64,000 nt of DNA from Acidaminococcaceae bacterium (lineage in GTDB: Bacteria > Bacillota > Negativicutes > Acidaminococcales > Acidaminococcaceae). The position numbers and the translations under genes were made by a program. Below, one piece after another: positions 5,947 to 58,798 of the stretch. The notes under the pieces are model-generated. The model made no database searches and was not told the DNA's origin. It saw only the letters and a program-made list of their open reading frames with translations. Each line of letters begins with the position of its first letter. Positions within the stretch are counted from its first letter, which is position 1. The stretch is from assembly GCA_017405945.1 (NCBI GenBank), contig JAFQZL010000059.1, forward strand, positions 1-64,000, in the 5' to 3' direction.

Positions 5947-8013
5947 ATGAAAGCTTATACAGGCGACAAAATCAGAAACGTGGCCATTGTAGGTCATGGT
6001 GGGGCCGGAACCACATCCGTTACGGAAGCCCTGCTCTATCGCGCAGGCGCCATCGACCGTATGTGCAAGGTCGAGGATGGGGCCACCACCACGGACTATG
6101 AACCGGAAGAAATCAAACGCGGCGTATCCGTTAACGCCACCCTGGCGCCGGTAGAATGGCGCGACAGCAAGATCAACTTCATCGACACCCCGGGCTTCGC
6201 CGACTTCGTAGCCGAAGTGAAAGGCGCTTTCCGGGCTGTAGACAGCGCCCTGATCGTAATCAACGCCACCGCAGGCGTACAGGTTGGCACCGAGCAGTGC
6301 TGGAAGCTGGCGGAAGAAGCCGGCCTGCCCCGCATCCTGCTGGTAAACAAGATGGACCGCGAAAACGCGGACTTCGACAGCATCCTGGAGAACCTGCGCC
6401 ATAAATTCGGCAAGAAAGTGCTGCCCCTGGAACTGCCTCTGGGCAAAGAAGATAAATTCGAAGGCGTCATCGACTGCGTAAAGATGAAAGCCTACCGCAA
6501 GAATGGTAACGGCTCCGACGAAATCGAGATTCCGGACGACCTGAAAGCCTATGCGGAAGATATGCATGAAAAGATGGTAGAAGCCGCAGTGGAAGCCGAC
6601 GACGAGTGCATGATGCGCTATCTGGAAGGCGAGACCATTTCCGATGAGGAAATCAAGAAATGCCTGATTATGGGTATCCGCCAGGCCCACATCTTCCCCA
6701 TGATCTGCTGCAGCGCCACCAAGAACATCGGCCTGGGCCGGACCATGAACGCCATCATCGACTATACCTACCCTGCCATCCTGAACGATTACAAGGTAAA
6801 AGACGTTGCCACCGGCGAAGAAGTAACCCGCGACGCAGGCGCCCCCATGGCGGCCCTGGTGTTCAAGACCACTTCCGACCCCTTCGTAGGCCGTCTGAGC
6901 TTCATCCGCGTGTTCTCCGGCTCCATCAAAGCCGACAGCGTGGTTTATAACTCCAGCCGTGAAAAAGACGAACGCATCGCCAACGTATTCACCATGCGCG
7001 GCAAGAGCCAGATCGCCATGAAAGAAATCACCGCCGGCGATATCGGCGTAACCTCTAAATTACAGTTCACGGTAACCGGCGATACCCTCAGCGATAAAGC
7101 CAACCCGGTTCTCTTCGCTCCCATCGCCTTCCCGCTGCCCATGTACACCCGTGCGATCTTTGCCAAGAAGAAAGGCGAAGAAGACAAAATTTCCAACGCC
7201 CTGACCCGCCTCATGGACGAAGACCCCACCATTATCATGAGCCGTAACCCGGTGACCAAGGAAATGCTGGTAAGCGGTATGGGCGACCAGCACATCGAAA
7301 TCATCATGGAACGCATGAAACGGAAATTTGGCGTGGAAGCCGACCTGCGAGCGCCTCAGGTTGAATACCGTGAGACCATCCGCGGCAAGGCCCATGTACA
7401 GGGCAAACATAAGAAACAGTCCGGCGGCCACGGCCAGTACGGCGACGTTGTGATCGATATGGAACCCCTGCCGCCGGGAAGCGGTTTCGAGTTCGTAGAT
7501 AAGATCTTCGGCGGCGCGGTACCCCGTCAGTACATCCCCGCTGTGGAAAAAGGCATGCAGGACTGCATGCAGCACGGCATCCTGGCCGGTTACCCGGTTG
7601 TGGACGTGCGCATCACCCTGGTGGACGGTTCCTACCATCCGGTTGACTCTTCGGAAATGGCCTTCAAGACCGCTTCCAGCATCGCCTTCAAGAAAGCGAT
7701 GGAAGAATCCAAGCCTGTTCTGATGGAACCCTACTACAACCTGTATGTTCTCTGCGCCGAGAGCATGATGGGCGACGTAATCGGCGACCTGAACTCCAAG
7801 CGCGGCCGTATCCTCGGCATGCAGAGCGTGGAAGAAGGCATCAGCCGTGTAGAAGCCCAGGTTCCTTATGCGGAGATCATGGAATACGCCGTTGACCTGC
7901 GGGCTCTGACCCAGGGCATGGGCACCTTCGAAATGAAGTTTGACCATTACGAAGACGTGCCGGCCAAGATGGCGGAAAAAATCATCGAAGAGAGAAAGAA
8001 AGACGCGGAATAA
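5947..8013 (+). CDS. Elongation factor G paralogue with altered GTPase motifs
   Basis: A 688-residue, complete five-domain EF-G homologue of the EF-G2-like branch. The G domain begins IVGHGGAGTTSVTEALL: the P-loop lysine (position 22) is threonine (codon ACC, 6010-6012). The G3 motif is DTPGFADF (80-87), with phenylalanine where EF-G has the catalytic histidine. G2 (RGVSVNATLAP), G4 (NKMD, 134-137) and G5 (CCSAT) are recognisable. Domain IV contains HKKQSGGHGQYGDVV and the C-terminus is normal. In canonical translational GTPases the P-loop lysine contacts the nucleotide phosphates and the histidine drives hydrolysis, so I infer weak or absent GTPase activity. The housekeeping fusA is expected elsewhere, with rpsL/rpsG. 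It has its own promoter and terminator. Confidence 0.9.
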   Translation: MKAYTGDKIRNVAIVGHGGAGTTSVTEALLYRAGAIDRMCKVEDGATTTDYEPEEIKRGVSVNATLAPVEWRDSKINFIDTPGFADFVAEVKGAFRAVDSALIVINATAGVQVGTEQCWKLAEEAGLPRILLVNKMDRENADFDSILENLRHKFGKKVLPLELPLGKEDKFEGVIDCVKMKAYRKNGNGSDEIEIPDDLKAYAEDMHEKMVEAAVEADDECMMRYLEGETISDEEIKKCLIMGIRQAHIFPMICCSATKNIGLGRTMNAIIDYTYPAILNDYKVKDVATGEEVTRDAGAPMAALVFKTTSDPFVGRLSFIRVFSGSIKADSVVYNSSREKDERIANVFTMRGKSQIAMKEITAGDIGVTSKLQFTVTGDTLSDKANPVLFAPIAFPLPMYTRAIFAKKKGEEDKISNALTRLMDEDPTIIMSRNPVTKEMLVSGMGDQHIEIIMERMKRKFGVEADLRAPQVEYRETIRGKAHVQGKHKKQSGGHGQYGDVVIDMEPLPPGSGFEFVDKIFGGAVPRQYIPAVEKGMQDCMQHGILAGYPVVDVRITLVDGSYHPVDSSEMAFKTASSIAFKKAMEESKPVLMEPYYNLYVLCAESMMGDVIGDLNSKRGRILGMQSVEEGISRVEAQVPYAEIMEYAVDLRALTQGMGTFEMKFDHYEDVPAKMAEKIIEERKKDAE

Positions 8014-41775: not shown

Positions 41776-43146
41776 ATGGAACGCGGAACCTTTTCAACCC
41801 GTCTTGGTTTTATATTAGTATCGGCAGGCTGCGCCATCGGCCTGGGCAACGTCTGGCGGTTTCCTTTCATCACCGGTAAATACGGGGGCGCGTCCTTTGT
41901 ACTGATATACTTATTCTTCCTCGCAATCCTGGGCCTGCCCATCATGGTAGCCGAGTTCGCCGTGGGCCGTGCCAGCAAGCGCAGCGCCTCGCTCTCCTTC
42001 GACATACTGGAGCCCAAAGGCACGAAATGGCATCTGTACAAGTACGGCTGCATCCTGGGCAACACCATGCTGATGATGTTCTACACTACCATTACCGGCT
42101 GGATGTTCTATTATCTGTATAAAATGGCCACCGGAGGATTTATTGGCCTGGCCGCCAAAGATATCGGCGGCGTGTTAGGCGGGCTGGTGACAGATCCCGT
42201 AACCATGACCGGTTACATGATCCTGACGGTCGTTTTGGGTTTCGGCGTCTGCTACCTGGGTGTGGAAGCCGGTGTGGAGCGGATCACCAAGTTCATGATG
42301 ACCTGCCTGCTGTTCCTCATGATCGCCCTGGCAGTCCATTCCGTGACACTGCCCGGTGGGGAAAGCGGTCTTGCCTATTTCCTGCAGCCTGATTTCAGCC
42401 GCCTTGCCAAATACGACGCCAACGAGGTCATCTTCGCCGCCATGGGGCAGGCGTTCTTCACCCTGAGCCTGGGCATCGGCGCCCTGGCTATTTTCGGCAG
42501 TTACATCGGCAAGGAAAAACGCCTCACCGGCGAAGCGATCTACGTCATCCTGCTGGATACTTTCGTGGCTATCATGAGCGGCCTGATCATCTTTCCGGCC
42601 TGCTCCGCGTTCAACGTGGATCCGGGCGCTGGTCCCAACCTGCTGTTCATCACCCTGCCCAACGTATTCAACCACATGGCCGGCGGCCGGTTCTGGGGCA
42701 CCCTGTTCTTCCTGTTTATGACCTTTGCCGCCATGTCCACCGTTATCGCGGTATTTGAGAACCTGGTAGCCTGCATCTGCGACCTGACCGGCTGGGAACG
42801 GAAGAGCGTCATCAGGCTGGGAACCGTCGCTATCATTGTATTGTCCCTGCCCTGTATTTTCGGTTTCAATATCTGGAGCAACTTCCAGCCTCTGGGCAAA
42901 GGCACCGGCGTGCTGGATCTGGAAGACTTCATCGTCAGCAACAATCTGCTGCCCCTGGGCAGTCTGATCTACCTCGCTTTCTGCACCAGCCGCTACGGCT
43001 GGGGCTGGGATAACTTCATCAAAGAAGCGGACACCGGCAAAGGCGTGGCATTTCCAAAATGGCTTCGGTTCTACCTGACATACCTTTTGCCTCTGGTCGT
43101 ACTGTACATTTTCGTTCAGGGCTACATCGCGATTTTCGGCCATTGA
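41776..43146 (+). CDS. Sodium-dependent transporter, NSS/SNF family
   Basis: 456 residues with about 11 transmembrane helices. The N-terminus RLGFILVSAGCAIGLGNVWRFPFITGKYGG is the NSS TM1 signature (Na and substrate sites). Helix regions follow with GLPIMVAEFAVGRAS and the TM6 stretch FFTLSLGIGALAIFGSY. Relatives such as LeuT and MhsT carry amino acids or other small amine solutes into the cell with Na+. The substrate cannot be read from sequence. Ribosome site GGGAGG is well placed, and the extended -10 promoter lies just upstream. The end is followed by a long palindromic element at 43177-43345. Confidence 0.93.
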   Translation: MERGTFSTRLGFILVSAGCAIGLGNVWRFPFITGKYGGASFVLIYLFFLAILGLPIMVAEFAVGRASKRSASLSFDILEPKGTKWHLYKYGCILGNTMLMMFYTTITGWMFYYLYKMATGGFIGLAAKDIGGVLGGLVTDPVTMTGYMILTVVLGFGVCYLGVEAGVERITKFMMTCLLFLMIALAVHSVTLPGGESGLAYFLQPDFSRLAKYDANEVIFAAMGQAFFTLSLGIGALAIFGSYIGKEKRLTGEAIYVILLDTFVAIMSGLIIFPACSAFNVDPGAGPNLLFITLPNVFNHMAGGRFWGTLFFLFMTFAAMSTVIAVFENLVACICDLTGWERKSVIRLGTVAIIVLSLPCIFGFNIWSNFQPLGKGTGVLDLEDFIVSNNLLPLGSLIYLAFCTSRYGWGWDNFIKEADTGKGVAFPKWLRFYLTYLLPLVVLYIFVQGYIAIFGH

Positions 43147-43176
43147 TAACCGATTTATCTGCAATAAGTAATTTGT

Positions 43177-43345
43177 AAGAAAAACGATACCGCAAAACCG
43201 GGGACGGTTCCTATTCCATGAATTCATTCGTCTGTGGCTTCGAAACTCGAGGCTTTGCCTCTCAAACAGTCTCGCCACGGACGAGGAATTTCATCTCATG
43301 GAATTACGTAACCGTCCCCGATGTTTTGCTCGTATCTTTTTTCTT
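43177..43345. repeat. Long imperfect palindrome, copy E1
   Basis: A 169-base element folding into one long hairpin. The outer arms 43177-43209 and 43310-43345 match almost base for base (for example CGGGGACGGTT with AACCGTCCCCG), and the inner arms continue through ATTCCATGA/TCATGGAAT and GTGGC/GCCAC to the apex GAGGCTTTGCCTC at 43249-43261. It lies between convergent genes. Its core is repeated in reverse orientation at 44513-44698. Confidence 0.85.
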
Positions 43346-43385
43346 TTAGCCTGCCTTGCTCAGCAGATAGAATCTGTATGAAATT

Positions 43386-44483
43386 CTACTTCAGATTATT
43401 AAAAAAGTGCGGCGAATCGCCCCACTGTCCCCAGCCTACCGTATCACCGACAGAAGCGACCCGCGCGCTGAGACAGTTGCGGCACTGTTCCTGCCCGTCT
43501 TCCAGGCAGGGTTTGTTGTCGTACAGCTGGTACTGACTGCGGAATTGCGGCAGTGTCACCAGGGGCATCAGAATATTGGCCCCGGCTTTCAGCGCCATTT
43601 CCCTTCCAAGAGGGTGTAGTGTCTGCATGGCTGTCGTAGCAGCGATGTTTACATCCTTTAAAAACAGGCGTGTCACCGCCACCATGTTAATGCTCAGCCG
43701 CAAACGGCGCGCCTTTTCTGCCTGCGAATCCAGACCGGTTTCACTGACTTTCTTCCCCAGCGGCGTGTTGTGATGCACCACATAAGGCCCCATACCGATC
43801 ATGGCTATGTTTTGTTTTTTATAGAACAATATATCATCCGCCAGATTCTCCAGCGTCTGCCCGGGAAGTCCGATCATGACACCGGTACCCACCTGGTAAC
43901 CGATTTCCGCCAGCGCGTCCAGACAGGCTTTCCGCACTTCCCACTTGTGATGTCCGTCCTGAGGATGCAGCGTTTTGTACAGTTTTGGGTTGCTGCTTTC
44001 GATCCGCAGCAGGTAACGGTGCGCCCCTGCATTGTACCAGCGCTGATAGGTTTCTTTTGTCTGTTCGCCCACACAAAGGGTGATCCCCAGGGCCCCGTTC
44101 CCTATCGATTTAATCTCCCGCAGCAGTTCCTCCACGTAATCAATGAATGCCCCGTCCTGCCGTTCTCCGGATTGCAGTGTAATGGAACCGTACTGTTGCT
44201 CATAGCACCAGCGGGCCATTGCCAGGATATCTTCCTTCGGCGTGTCAAACCGTTCCACCTGCCGGTTGCCTCTGCGGATCCCACAGTAGCAGCAGTTCTT
44301 GATGCAGCGGTTGGAAAACTCCAGCAGGCCCCGGTAGTAATCCACATTACCGACCCATTCCTTTTTGACTTCATAGGCCATACGGTACAACTGCTCCAGT
44401 TCATCCGGTTCAGTGCGGCCCAGCAAGAACACAAGGTCTTCCCTATTCAGTTCTTCTTTTTGTAAATAATAAGAAATGTTCAT
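43386..44483 (-). CDS. hydE: [FeFe]-hydrogenase maturase HydE (radical SAM)
   Basis: 365-residue radical SAM enzyme with the CxxxCxxC cluster in FSNRCIKNCCYCGIRRGN (Cys near 61-68), ITLQSGERQ, GIGLPGQT-like segment GVMIGLPGQTLENLADD and the BATS domain with C-terminal cysteines (CRNCLSARVA). It matches HydE, which works with HydF and HydG to build the di-iron site of [FeFe]-hydrogenase. hydF and hydG are not in the window. BioB and PylB are related, but the sequence and absence of biotin genes favour HydE. The ribosome site is weak. Palindromes E1 and E2 lie on either side. Confidence 0.85.
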   Translation of the reverse strand: MNISYYLQKEELNREDLVFLLGRTEPDELEQLYRMAYEVKKEWVGNVDYYRGLLEFSNRCIKNCCYCGIRRGNRQVERFDTPKEDILAMARWCYEQQYGSITLQSGERQDGAFIDYVEELLREIKSIGNGALGITLCVGEQTKETYQRWYNAGAHRYLLRIESSNPKLYKTLHPQDGHHKWEVRKACLDALAEIGYQVGTGVMIGLPGQTLENLADDILFYKKQNIAMIGMGPYVVHHNTPLGKKVSETGLDSQAEKARRLRLSINMVAVTRLFLKDVNIAATTAMQTLHPLGREMALKAGANILMPLVTLPQFRSQYQLYDNKPCLEDGQEQCRNCLSARVASVGDTVGWGQWGDSPHFFNNLK

Positions 44484-44512
44484 TTTTGTTCATTATTAAA
44501 AAACTATATCGG

Positions 44513-44698
44513 AAAAGCGAAGGCGTGCAAGGATTGAACAAAACAACGGAAGCGTTTGCGTAATTCTGTGAGATGAAATGCGCCGTCGTGGCGAGACTGT
44601 CTGAGGGGCACAGCCCGAGTTTCGAAGCCACAGGCGCATGAGTCCATAGAATAGCAAACACGTACGGTTTTGCGAAACCTTGCACACCTGAATCTTTT
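44513..44698. repeat. Long imperfect palindrome, copy E2 (inverted relative to E1)
   Basis: About 186 bases with arms 44513-44532 and 44678-44698 (AAAAG..GTGCAAGG with CCTTGCAC..CTTTT) and apex GGGCACAGCCC near 44606-44616. Its reverse complement shares exact blocks with E1: 18 bases (44616-44633 with 43232-43249), 13 bases (44587-44599 with 43267-43279), and ATTTCATCTCA and GAATTACG further out. It lies between the hydE start and the end of the crotonase gene. Confidence 0.85.
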
Positions 44699-44709
44699 AC
44701 GAAATAAAC

Positions 44710-45507
44710 TTATTTGCCTGTAAACTTTGCTTTCCGTTTCTCCAGGAACGCCGTGATGCCTTCCTTAAAATCAGCGCTGTTGGCGCATTCGTTCTGCAGG
44801 GCAACTTCCGCTTTGATAAATTCTTCAAAGCCCTGGTACATGCTGACGAACATCATCTTCTTCATATTGGCATATGCCAGTGTGGGACCTGCCGCCAGTT
44901 TTTTAGCGAAAGCCATGGCTTTCGGCATCAGTTCTTCCGCCGTGGTCACTTCTTTTACAAGACCCAGTTCAAAGCATTCCTGCGCGGAAACCGGACGTCC
45001 CGTTACGAACATATCCATGGCGCGATGGGTCCCGATAGCTCTCGGTAACATATAACCGCCGCTGGTATCCGGGATCAGGGCGATGCCTACAAAGGCCTGC
45101 AGGAACTTGGCATTGTCCGCCGCGTACACAAAATCGCATCCCAGAGCCAGATTGCAGCCGCCGCCGGCTGCCGCGCCCGCTACGGCACAGATGACCAGTT
45201 TTTTCATCTTTTTGATATACAACACAATCTCCGACAGTTTGCCGGCCAGCGGTCCCATGGAAGTATCTGCGAAATCCGGTTCTTCGCAATGGGCTTTCAT
45301 GAAACGGATATCCCCGCCGCCGCAGAACGCCCGGCCTGCGCCCGTCAGTACCACAACTTTGACAGCGTCGTCTTCTTCCGCCTGTTTCAGCACAGCCTCC
45401 AGTTCCAGCGCCAGGTTCATGTCCAGCGCGTTCAGGGTCGGCGCATAATCCAGCGTGATAACCGCAACCGCATCTTCCACAACAAAACGCAACATCTTAA
45501 ATTCCAT
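44710..45507 (-). CDS. Enoyl-CoA hydratase/isomerase family protein (PaaG-like)
   Basis: A 265-residue crotonase-fold protein. The oxyanion-hole motifs are AFCGGGDIRFM near residue 62 and AVAGAAAGGGCNLALGCDF near 108. In the position of the second catalytic residue it reads IALIPDTSGGYMLPR, with Asp where enoyl-CoA hydratases have Glu; PaaG-like isomerases have this pattern. It probably acts on an acyl-CoA substrate in degradation or isomerisation, but the substrate is unknown. AGGAGG lies 7-8 bases before the ATG. It follows the M20D amidohydrolase gene in the same direction with a gap of about 90 bases. Confidence 0.88.
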   Translation of the reverse strand: MEFKMLRFVVEDAVAVITLDYAPTLNALDMNLALELEAVLKQAEEDDAVKVVVLTGAGRAFCGGGDIRFMKAHCEEPDFADTSMGPLAGKLSEIVLYIKKMKKLVICAVAGAAAGGGCNLALGCDFVYAADNAKFLQAFVGIALIPDTSGGYMLPRAIGTHRAMDMFVTGRPVSAQECFELGLVKEVTTAEELMPKAMAFAKKLAAGPTLAYANMKKMMFVSMYQGFEEFIKAEVALQNECANSADFKEGITAFLEKRKAKFTGK

Positions 45508-58159: not shown

Positions 58160-58199
58160 GCGTTCCTCCTGCATGTATCAAAACATGAATTCCCGGGTC

Positions 58200-58250
58200 A
58201 GGAAAAGACTTCGCAAAACCGTTCACGATGTTTTGCCCGTGTCTTTTCCT
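58200..58250. repeat. Short palindrome E3 related to the outer arms of E1
   Basis: AGGAAAAGAC...GCAAAACCG and CGATGTTTTGC...GTCTTTTCCT form an imperfect hairpin around a 4-base loop. The same outer motifs (GCAAAACCG left, GATGTTTTGCnCGTnTCTTTT right) bound E1, so it looks like an E1 element without the central core. It lies between rdgB and the gene at 58271. Confidence 0.7.
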
Positions 58251-58270
58251 TACCTGCAAATCTCAGTCTG

Positions 58271-58798
58271 TTAAATCAATTTCTGCAGTTCTTCTTTTGT
58301 CAGCAGAATATTTTCTTTATTGTGGAACAGTTCCATCCGTCCCCGGCGCTCCACATACAGGGCGAATTCCACATCCGGTATCCCCAGCAGCGCTTCTTCG
58401 GCAGTCTTTTTGCCGTTGCGCGGCGTCACCTCAAAGGTCACGGTCAGGTGACCTTTCTCTCCCGGAGGCACCAGGCGCGCTTCAAAGTAATCGTCGGTAC
58501 GGGGCGCGGCCGGATGATTCACCCTGGCCCGCATCAGCGCGCCGTTGTACTGTTCGTCCGGCAGATAGATACGGACAAAGGCGTCCAGAAAGATTCCTTC
58601 ATCGCGGCTTTTGTTATCATATGGCACATCTACGCTGAACTCGATTTTGTCTTCTGTTTTGGAAACCAACTTTGCCTGCGTGCGTTTTTCTTTATAAAAC
58701 ACCAGCAGTTTATCGGCCGCGGCATGTTTGGAGATCAGCTGCAGCGTAAACAGGATCACCAGTACGATCAGTACCAGAATAATGCCTACTACTATCAT
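58271..58798 (-). CDS. Membrane-anchored protein of unknown function
   Basis: 175 residues: one N-terminal transmembrane helix (MIVVGIILVLIVLVILFTLQLI), then a mostly beta soluble domain (AKLVSKTEDKIEFSVDVPYDNKSRDEGIFLDAFVRIYLPDEQYNG...) and a Lys/Glu-rich end. No family recognised. Start ATG 58798 overlaps the stop of the CofE-like gene by 4 bases (ATGA), with GGGGG just upstream, so the two genes are translated as a coupled pair. Confidence 0.7.
   Translation of the reverse strand: MIVVGIILVLIVLVILFTLQLISKHAAADKLLVFYKEKRTQAKLVSKTEDKIEFSVDVPYDNKSRDEGIFLDAFVRIYLPDEQYNGALMRARVNHPAAPRTDDYFEARLVPPGEKGHLTVTFEVTPRNGKKTAEEALLGIPDVEFALYVERRGRMELFHNKENILLTKEELQKLI

Follow-up and report, generated by a model that had tools for sequence, protein, structure and literature searches.

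Two copies of one palindromic repeat flank hydE

The window analyzed here is a 64,000-nucleotide stretch of DNA from a genome (G000, here called the home genome) that is a Succiniclasticum. In this window, a sodium-dependent (SNF-type) transporter gene (positions 41776..43146, plus strand; PF00209, NF037979) converges on hydE, the gene for an [FeFe] hydrogenase maturase (43386..44483, minus strand; TIGR03956, 310 bits against a cut-off of 254.6), and beyond hydE lies an enoyl-CoA hydratase/isomerase (crotonase) family gene (44710..45507, minus strand; PF00378). The gap between the 3′ ends of the two convergent genes holds E1, a full-length copy of a palindromic repeat (43177..43345, plus strand); the transporter gene stops 31 nt before it. 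A second full-length copy, E2, lies in the inverted orientation (44513..44698, minus strand) in the gap that separates the crotonase 3′ end from the hydE 5′ end, and begins 11 nt past the crotonase stop.

The folds predicted for both elements were better than those of shuffled sequence. RNA from positions 43160-43360 on the plus strand (E1) reached -85.6 kcal/mol (z -8.86) and RNA from positions 44500-44710 on the minus strand (E2) reached -78.2 kcal/mol (z -6.86), with 0 of 200 shuffles equally good in either case. The core that the two elements share, GTGGCTTCGAAACTCGRG, has exactly two occurrences in the window, where chance would give 0.11. A covariance model scored E1 at 159.7 bits (43181-43336, plus strand) and E2 at 160.5 bits (44531-44684, minus strand), each with E ~1e-36; these scores are high partly by construction, since the model was built from all copies in the genome, E1 and E2 included. 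No credible ORF was found inside either element. The original prediction, made from the sequence of the window, was thus borne out in its description of two nearly full-length hairpins, of opposite orientation and without a transposase or ORF, that belong to one repeat family and are not chance palindromes.

The most conserved stretch in an alignment of 28 copies is an apical core, which lies at 43234..43278 (plus strand) in E1, where it reads GTGGCTTCGAAACTCG-hairpin-AAACAGTCTCGCCAC, and at 44588..44631 (minus strand) in E2; both contain an exact core match. At the 3′ base of the E1 hairpin, the sequence reads as a T-rich tract, TTTTTTCTTTT (43337..43347, plus strand), and an A run at 43180-43184 is a U run on the opposite strand. 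Behind a gene, an intrinsic terminator takes the form of a stable hairpin followed by a T tract. In E1, TTTTTTCTTTT lies between the hairpin and the 3′ end of hydE, and transcripts of the opposite strand would carry a U run; E2 has a weak T tract at its base, poorer than that of E1. A simple terminator scan returned one weak site in E1 and none in E2; the scan performs poorly on these elements because it expects short loops and misses such large hairpins.

The window also contains a core-deleted mini copy (about 58188..58262, plus strand), a compact inverted repeat TCAGGAAAAGACTTCGCAAAACCG...GTTTTGCCCGTGTCTTTTCC with a fold z of -5.8 and a covariance model E of 9e-5, which sits directly behind a minus-strand ORF (58271-58798, ending at 58271). 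Elsewhere, at positions 284-325, a perfect 19-bp inverted repeat (AAAATAATAAAGCGACGGA/TCCGTCGCTTTATTATTTT) forms an ordinary bidirectional terminator-like hairpin.

The original prediction also remarked that the two copies bracket a single metabolic gene, hydE; comparison with related genomes gave this arrangement no special weight. E1 belongs to a convergent gap and E2 stands behind the crotonase gene. Both sites are occupied in G011; in G003 and G006 only the E1 site is, and Succiniclasticum ruminis has reduced forms at both. The pairing around hydE is incidental, with no special meaning, because the two sites have been filled independently across species; many unrelated genes in the home genome are also flanked by the repeat family.

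The family is dispersed within one genus

A BLAST search of the home genome with either copy returned 28 near-full-length copies plus variants, at 76-90% identity. A local duplication, the outcome that would have been expected had no copies existed elsewhere, was ruled out, as the family is genome-wide. Among related genomes, a covariance model screen under Infernal's stricter filters gave hits in 11 of the 14 Succiniclasticum genomes (11 to 69 copies in each; 49 in G001, 69 in G003 and 21 in G013) and in none of 27 genomes of other genera from the same family, order and class (Fisher 1e-7 for 11/14 versus 0/27). Within this sample of 14 Succiniclasticum and 27 other genomes, the family is restricted to the genus. 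Every exact core match fell in a record titled Succiniclasticum, Acidaminococcaceae or Selenomonadales, and many of these records came from ruminant-associated metagenome assemblies.

Two other identities were rejected. The viral collection IMG/VR contained no exact core match, which argued against viral carriage. Rfam gave no gathering-level match in the window except a tRNA, and nothing credible for the elements at relaxed thresholds, so a known structured RNA was set aside. The elements constitute a real repeat family that was previously unannotated in the resources searched.

A conserved apical domain stands on a variable, paired base

Copies were oriented by the apical core and then aligned. 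Each consists of a conserved hairpin of ~150 nt and a variable, still paired base, for an overall length of about 170-230 bp; GC content is ~50%, and the palindrome runs almost end to end. The hairpin is nested: the variable base closes on GCAAAACC/GTTTTGC, followed by TTGCTATTCCATGGACTCATTCGCC and its partner and then by the apical domain, GTGGCTTCGAAACTCG-GGGCTTCGCCC-TCAGACAGTCTCGCCAC, which includes conserved unpaired positions. The loop is absent from one copy (L029). The apical loops of L028, L058 and L144, and of L092 (about 6060-6240, minus strand) and L321, carry longer nested structured inserts; these are of two different kinds, each present in more than one copy, and they resemble further small repeats.

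RNAalifold predicted 39 pairs, of which 23 showed changes on both sides, compared with 10.2 in shuffles and 3-9 with slid partners. Such strong covariation, together with a highly conserved apical core that retains unpaired positions, is what would be expected if transcribed copies acted as a structured RNA or 3′-UTR element that folds and, once processed or bound by a factor such as RNase III, controls mRNA stability. Orthologous copies are also sometimes better conserved than their flanking genes (95% versus 78-80% at the L003 site). Across species, the copies at L003 are 92-99% identical and the flanking genes 72-97% identical. Part of this similarity may reflect recent spread or a strongly constrained active sequence, because near-identical copies are found at unrelated sites in other species as well (L122).

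Other features of the alignment argue against the RNA explanation, which we regard as improbable. G.U pairs are not more common than A.C mismatches, either in the home genome (18 versus 24) or among 126 aligned sequences (92 versus 119), a pattern that speaks against selection acting only on a single RNA strand and is compatible with folding of both strands or a DNA palindrome. At co-directional sites in the home genome, orientation relative to the upstream gene is unbiased (7 versus 5), and Rfam holds no match. Sitewise compensatory evolution was likewise rejected: in comparisons of close orthologous sites, stem changes are for the most part unpaired, and compensations occur mainly between more diverged copies. 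Covariation thus characterizes subfamilies in the main and is no proof of function at individual sites.

Elements occupy the positions of ordinary terminators

In the home genome, 14 of 28 resolved sites were convergent gaps; among S. ruminis spacers 50 nt or longer, 123 of 1187 were (10%; p 3e-7), with gene calls taken from a simple codon-usage caller. The distance from the stop codon to the element was mostly 4-60 nt. In G001, which carries a young subfamily, no convergent enrichment was seen: 11 of 15 full copies lie between co-directional genes, a distribution much like that of ordinary spacers. These young copies show no preference for convergent gaps and another terminator persists at some sites, so the survival of certain insertions over others could account for part of the placement.

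Comparison across species revealed that the element occupies the terminator position at orthologous loci. At the E1 position, G003 has the same element as the home genome and G011 has an element of a different subfamily, while G001 has a plain bidirectional terminator (AAAAAAGCGACGTCCTTTAGGGCGTCGCTTTTTT), G002 has a different plain terminator, and S. ruminis DSM 9236 (G005; about 90% of the genome covered, 2.23 Mb) has a small hairpin, still with GCAAAACC. At the L024 site, S. ruminis has a compact terminator, ATAACGGCGGGCAAGAACTTGCCCGCCGTTATTTTT, and the home genome has an element between GGCGGGCAA and TTGCCCGCC, such that the stem of the S. ruminis terminator brackets the element. Exchanges between element and terminator that resemble the one at L024 were found at L012, L022 and L026. 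S. ruminis and G007 have kept the base hairpin and lost the core at the E2 site, as has also happened at L020 and at the L063/L065/L085 site. Taken together, this comparative evidence that the family may stand in for transcription terminators is unusually clear.

In some cases, the origin of the base stem could be assigned. The stem GCGTGCAAGG/CCTTGCACGC, or a close variant, is common to E2, L011, L021, L026 and L027; for this reason, it probably belongs to the element in this subfamily, and the small form would then be a deletion product. Across sites, it cannot always be told whether a base stem came with the element or belonged to a terminator that the element entered. At the L025 site, the element is 96% identical between the home genome and G003 and 72% identical in S. 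ruminis, with flanking genes 93-95% identical between the home genome and S. ruminis; this divergence reflects replacement, conversion or repeated insertion at one site.

Convergent gene pairs that hold an element are also short of other terminators. In element-free convergent controls from S. ruminis (gaps of 20-500 nt), a canonical terminator was present at 171 of 212 gene ends (81%). With the element masked, only 8 of 28 gene ends in the home genome had another canonical terminator (Fisher 5e-8). By pairs, at least one canonical terminator was found in 96 of 106 S. ruminis controls and in 6 of the 14 element-holding pairs of the home genome, again with the element masked (Fisher 9e-5). Where other intergenic sequence was scarcest (seven sites), no pair had another terminator (0/7), compared with 6/7 control gaps of 20-60 nt (p 0.005). 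Another terminator is retained beside the element at L002, L020, L024 and L025. The shortage of terminators at element-holding convergent pairs is the main support, of an indirect kind, for the proposed role in termination.

The same comparisons bear on whether the family is a purely selfish MITE-like repeat that takes no part in termination and lies behind genes because harmful insertions elsewhere have been lost. The young G001 copies, which are spread like ordinary spacers, would fit this explanation, as would the defined inverted ends and many deletion derivatives described below. A neutral insertion, however, would spare the old terminator, yet 8 of 14 convergent sites lack one and 91% of controls have one. 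The derivatives, moreover, in many cases retain the base hairpin and are missing just the core, as at the E2 site of S. ruminis and G007, L020 and the L063/L065/L085 site. On balance, we consider a purely selfish repeat unlikely.

Young copies have defined ends and show no consistent target duplication

Flank pairs from elements in other species mapped to empty or reduced positions of S. ruminis DSM 9236 in 44 cases, consistent with a family that has moved. In G001, a young subfamily of ~228-230 bp includes copies up to 98% identical at unrelated sites. These copies are bounded by two related 18-bp inverted ends, AAATTGAAGTTTGTGTGC and AAATCAGAATTTATGTGC; the end motif (T1) had 31 matches in the G001 genome, compared with 1 for a reversed control pattern. 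Such ends were not found in the window, including E1 and E2, which are old copies of older subfamilies.

Deletion derivatives in G001, down to 32-45 bp, keep the common ends, and at least one unrelated palindromic interior carries them as well. Such products would be expected of a transposase that recognizes the ends in trans. A second, unrelated palindromic repeat with T1-type ends, CCCGGCTGATGC...GCCGGGC, was seen at L350:1500-1720 and L346 of G001. Also in G001, the junctions of three left-deleted copies (L306, L305 and L316) fall within the 3′-terminal part of the coding sequence upstream and would alter the protein C terminus; judged by sequence alone, the affected gene in L306 looks like gyrB.

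Target-site duplications, which the original prediction had proposed as a check, were not consistently present. Flanking direct repeats numbered 15, against 14.5 expected from shuffled pairings; pairs of occupied and empty sites showed no constant target duplication; and the defined ends of young copies showed no visible one. Apparent 8-9 bp overlaps at a few sites were discounted, as they are equally explicable as deletions between short repeats. An IS630-type TA duplication was also rejected, there being only a mild T excess before the end and no DDE_3 transposase in the genus. In a search that covered five transposase and reverse transcriptase families, PF01797, PF00078, PF01609, PF01548 and PF13358 (Y1, reverse transcriptase, IS4-type, IS110 and DDE_3, respectively) were missing from several, and in some cases all, of the genomes rich in the element; PF04986 (IS91) was silent everywhere, including in its controls, and so carries no information.

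The palindromic, intergenic nature of the family and the lack of a detected target duplication are compatible with a REP-type element moved as single-stranded hairpin DNA by a RAYT/IS200-like tyrosine transposase. E1 also holds GGGGACGGTT, a sequence known from other REP-like repeats. The GGGGACGG block, however, is not conserved within the family, and Y1 (PF01797) is absent from G001, G003 and G013 despite their 49, 69 and 21 copies. REPs are palindromes of 20-40 bp (PMC3733652) that carry a GTAG or CGTC tag, in genomes that encode a Y1 transposase, and the element described here is several times longer and abundant in several genomes that lack PF01797. A REP-type origin is accordingly very improbable. 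Many IS200-type Y1 transposase fragments were observed at contig ends of S. ruminis DSM 9236, and are absent in most sister genomes; they represent a recent IS200 expansion that breaks the assembly.

RNA-templated (SINE-like) spread would explain why young copies share the same right end and differ in their start points: about a dozen young G001 copies start at positions 40-122 of the 230-bp unit and end near 222. Several of these copies, however, are internal deletions with the left terminus kept, L335, L340 and L344 are right-deleted and keep the left part only, and no reverse transcriptase was found in G001, G000, G003 or G005. We dropped this explanation, to which we attach almost no probability.

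With respect to the original suggestion of a MITE or terminator-like repeat, the dispersal of the family, its differing occupancy between species and its terminator position stood up, while a target-site duplication and a mobilizing enzyme were not found. The family looks like a non-autonomous mobile element; we describe it as MITE-like and not as a proven MITE because the latter two features are usual for MITEs.

A MITE-like palindrome that may serve as a large bidirectional terminator

The pneumococcal SPRITE provides the best description of the nearest known kind, a terminator-like MITE (PMC3049150). Like the Succiniclasticum element, SPRITE is a small interspersed MITE-like repeat found largely in one species and its near relatives; it is enriched near the 3′ ends of coding sequences, is thought to have been co-opted as a terminator, and has no established target duplication (PMC3049150). 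SPRITE, at 28.1% GC, is AT-rich and has an 18-bp duplex, a U tract and ends that read AAAA/TTTT (PMC3049150), whereas the Succiniclasticum element is 150-230 nt long, with ~50% GC, a near end-to-end palindrome and a conserved apical core. Element-free orthologous sites comparable to those described here were not available for SPRITE (PMC3049150); for the Succiniclasticum element, such sites exist.

Several other families are similar in part. The ~190-bp QMITE2 of Coxiella lies mainly in 3′ untranslated regions and has many truncated copies missing ends (PMC10969869); its host is different, and the likeness is one of description. The ERIC, YPAL and Correia (NEMIS) MITEs are intergenic, palindromic, transcribed and folded in mRNA, and present in tens to hundreds of copies, and ERIC at gene 3′ ends affects transcript levels (PMC10969869, PMC3733652). 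In contrast to these, the Succiniclasticum element has no target duplication or source IS that we could find, is strongly placed in convergent gaps, and exchanges with terminators.

EFAR repeats form stem-loops of up to ~170 bp downstream of genes, and some act as bidirectional terminators. They are found in enterococci, where they are listed as MITEs (PMC3733652). Their host lineage is different, and here too the likeness to the Succiniclasticum element is one of description.

Our preferred reading, to which we assign a rough probability of 0.62 from the sequence comparisons above, is that the family is a dispersed, non-autonomous, MITE-like palindrome of Succiniclasticum that is kept as a large bidirectional terminator and is close in kind to the pneumococcal SPRITE. 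A copy arriving in a 3′ intergenic gap would be transcribed from either side, and its hairpin would fold; with the A/T tracts at its base, the hairpin could then act as a large bidirectional intrinsic terminator and displace the ordinary one. Alternatively, a copy might lose its apical core and decay to a small terminator hairpin. Movement would take place in trans, through an enzyme that recognizes the terminal inverted repeats.

A further possibility, which we think unlikely, is a mobile terminator in the full sense: a transposable palindrome that moves about within one genus through an enzyme whose insertions lack a target duplication, taking the place of host terminators again and again. 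If so, the 3′ ends of many genes here would be set by a mobile element.

Co-option as host terminators has been suspected for terminator-like MITEs. At a set of orthologous positions in Succiniclasticum, what occupies a given gap differs between sister species: the element, a core-deleted mini hairpin or an ordinary terminator. The findings add an unannotated repeat family, at up to about 70 copies per genome, to a rumen genus, and the element, together with a named carrier strain, S. ruminis DSM 9236, offers a direct test system for the turnover of terminators and their supply by mobile DNA.
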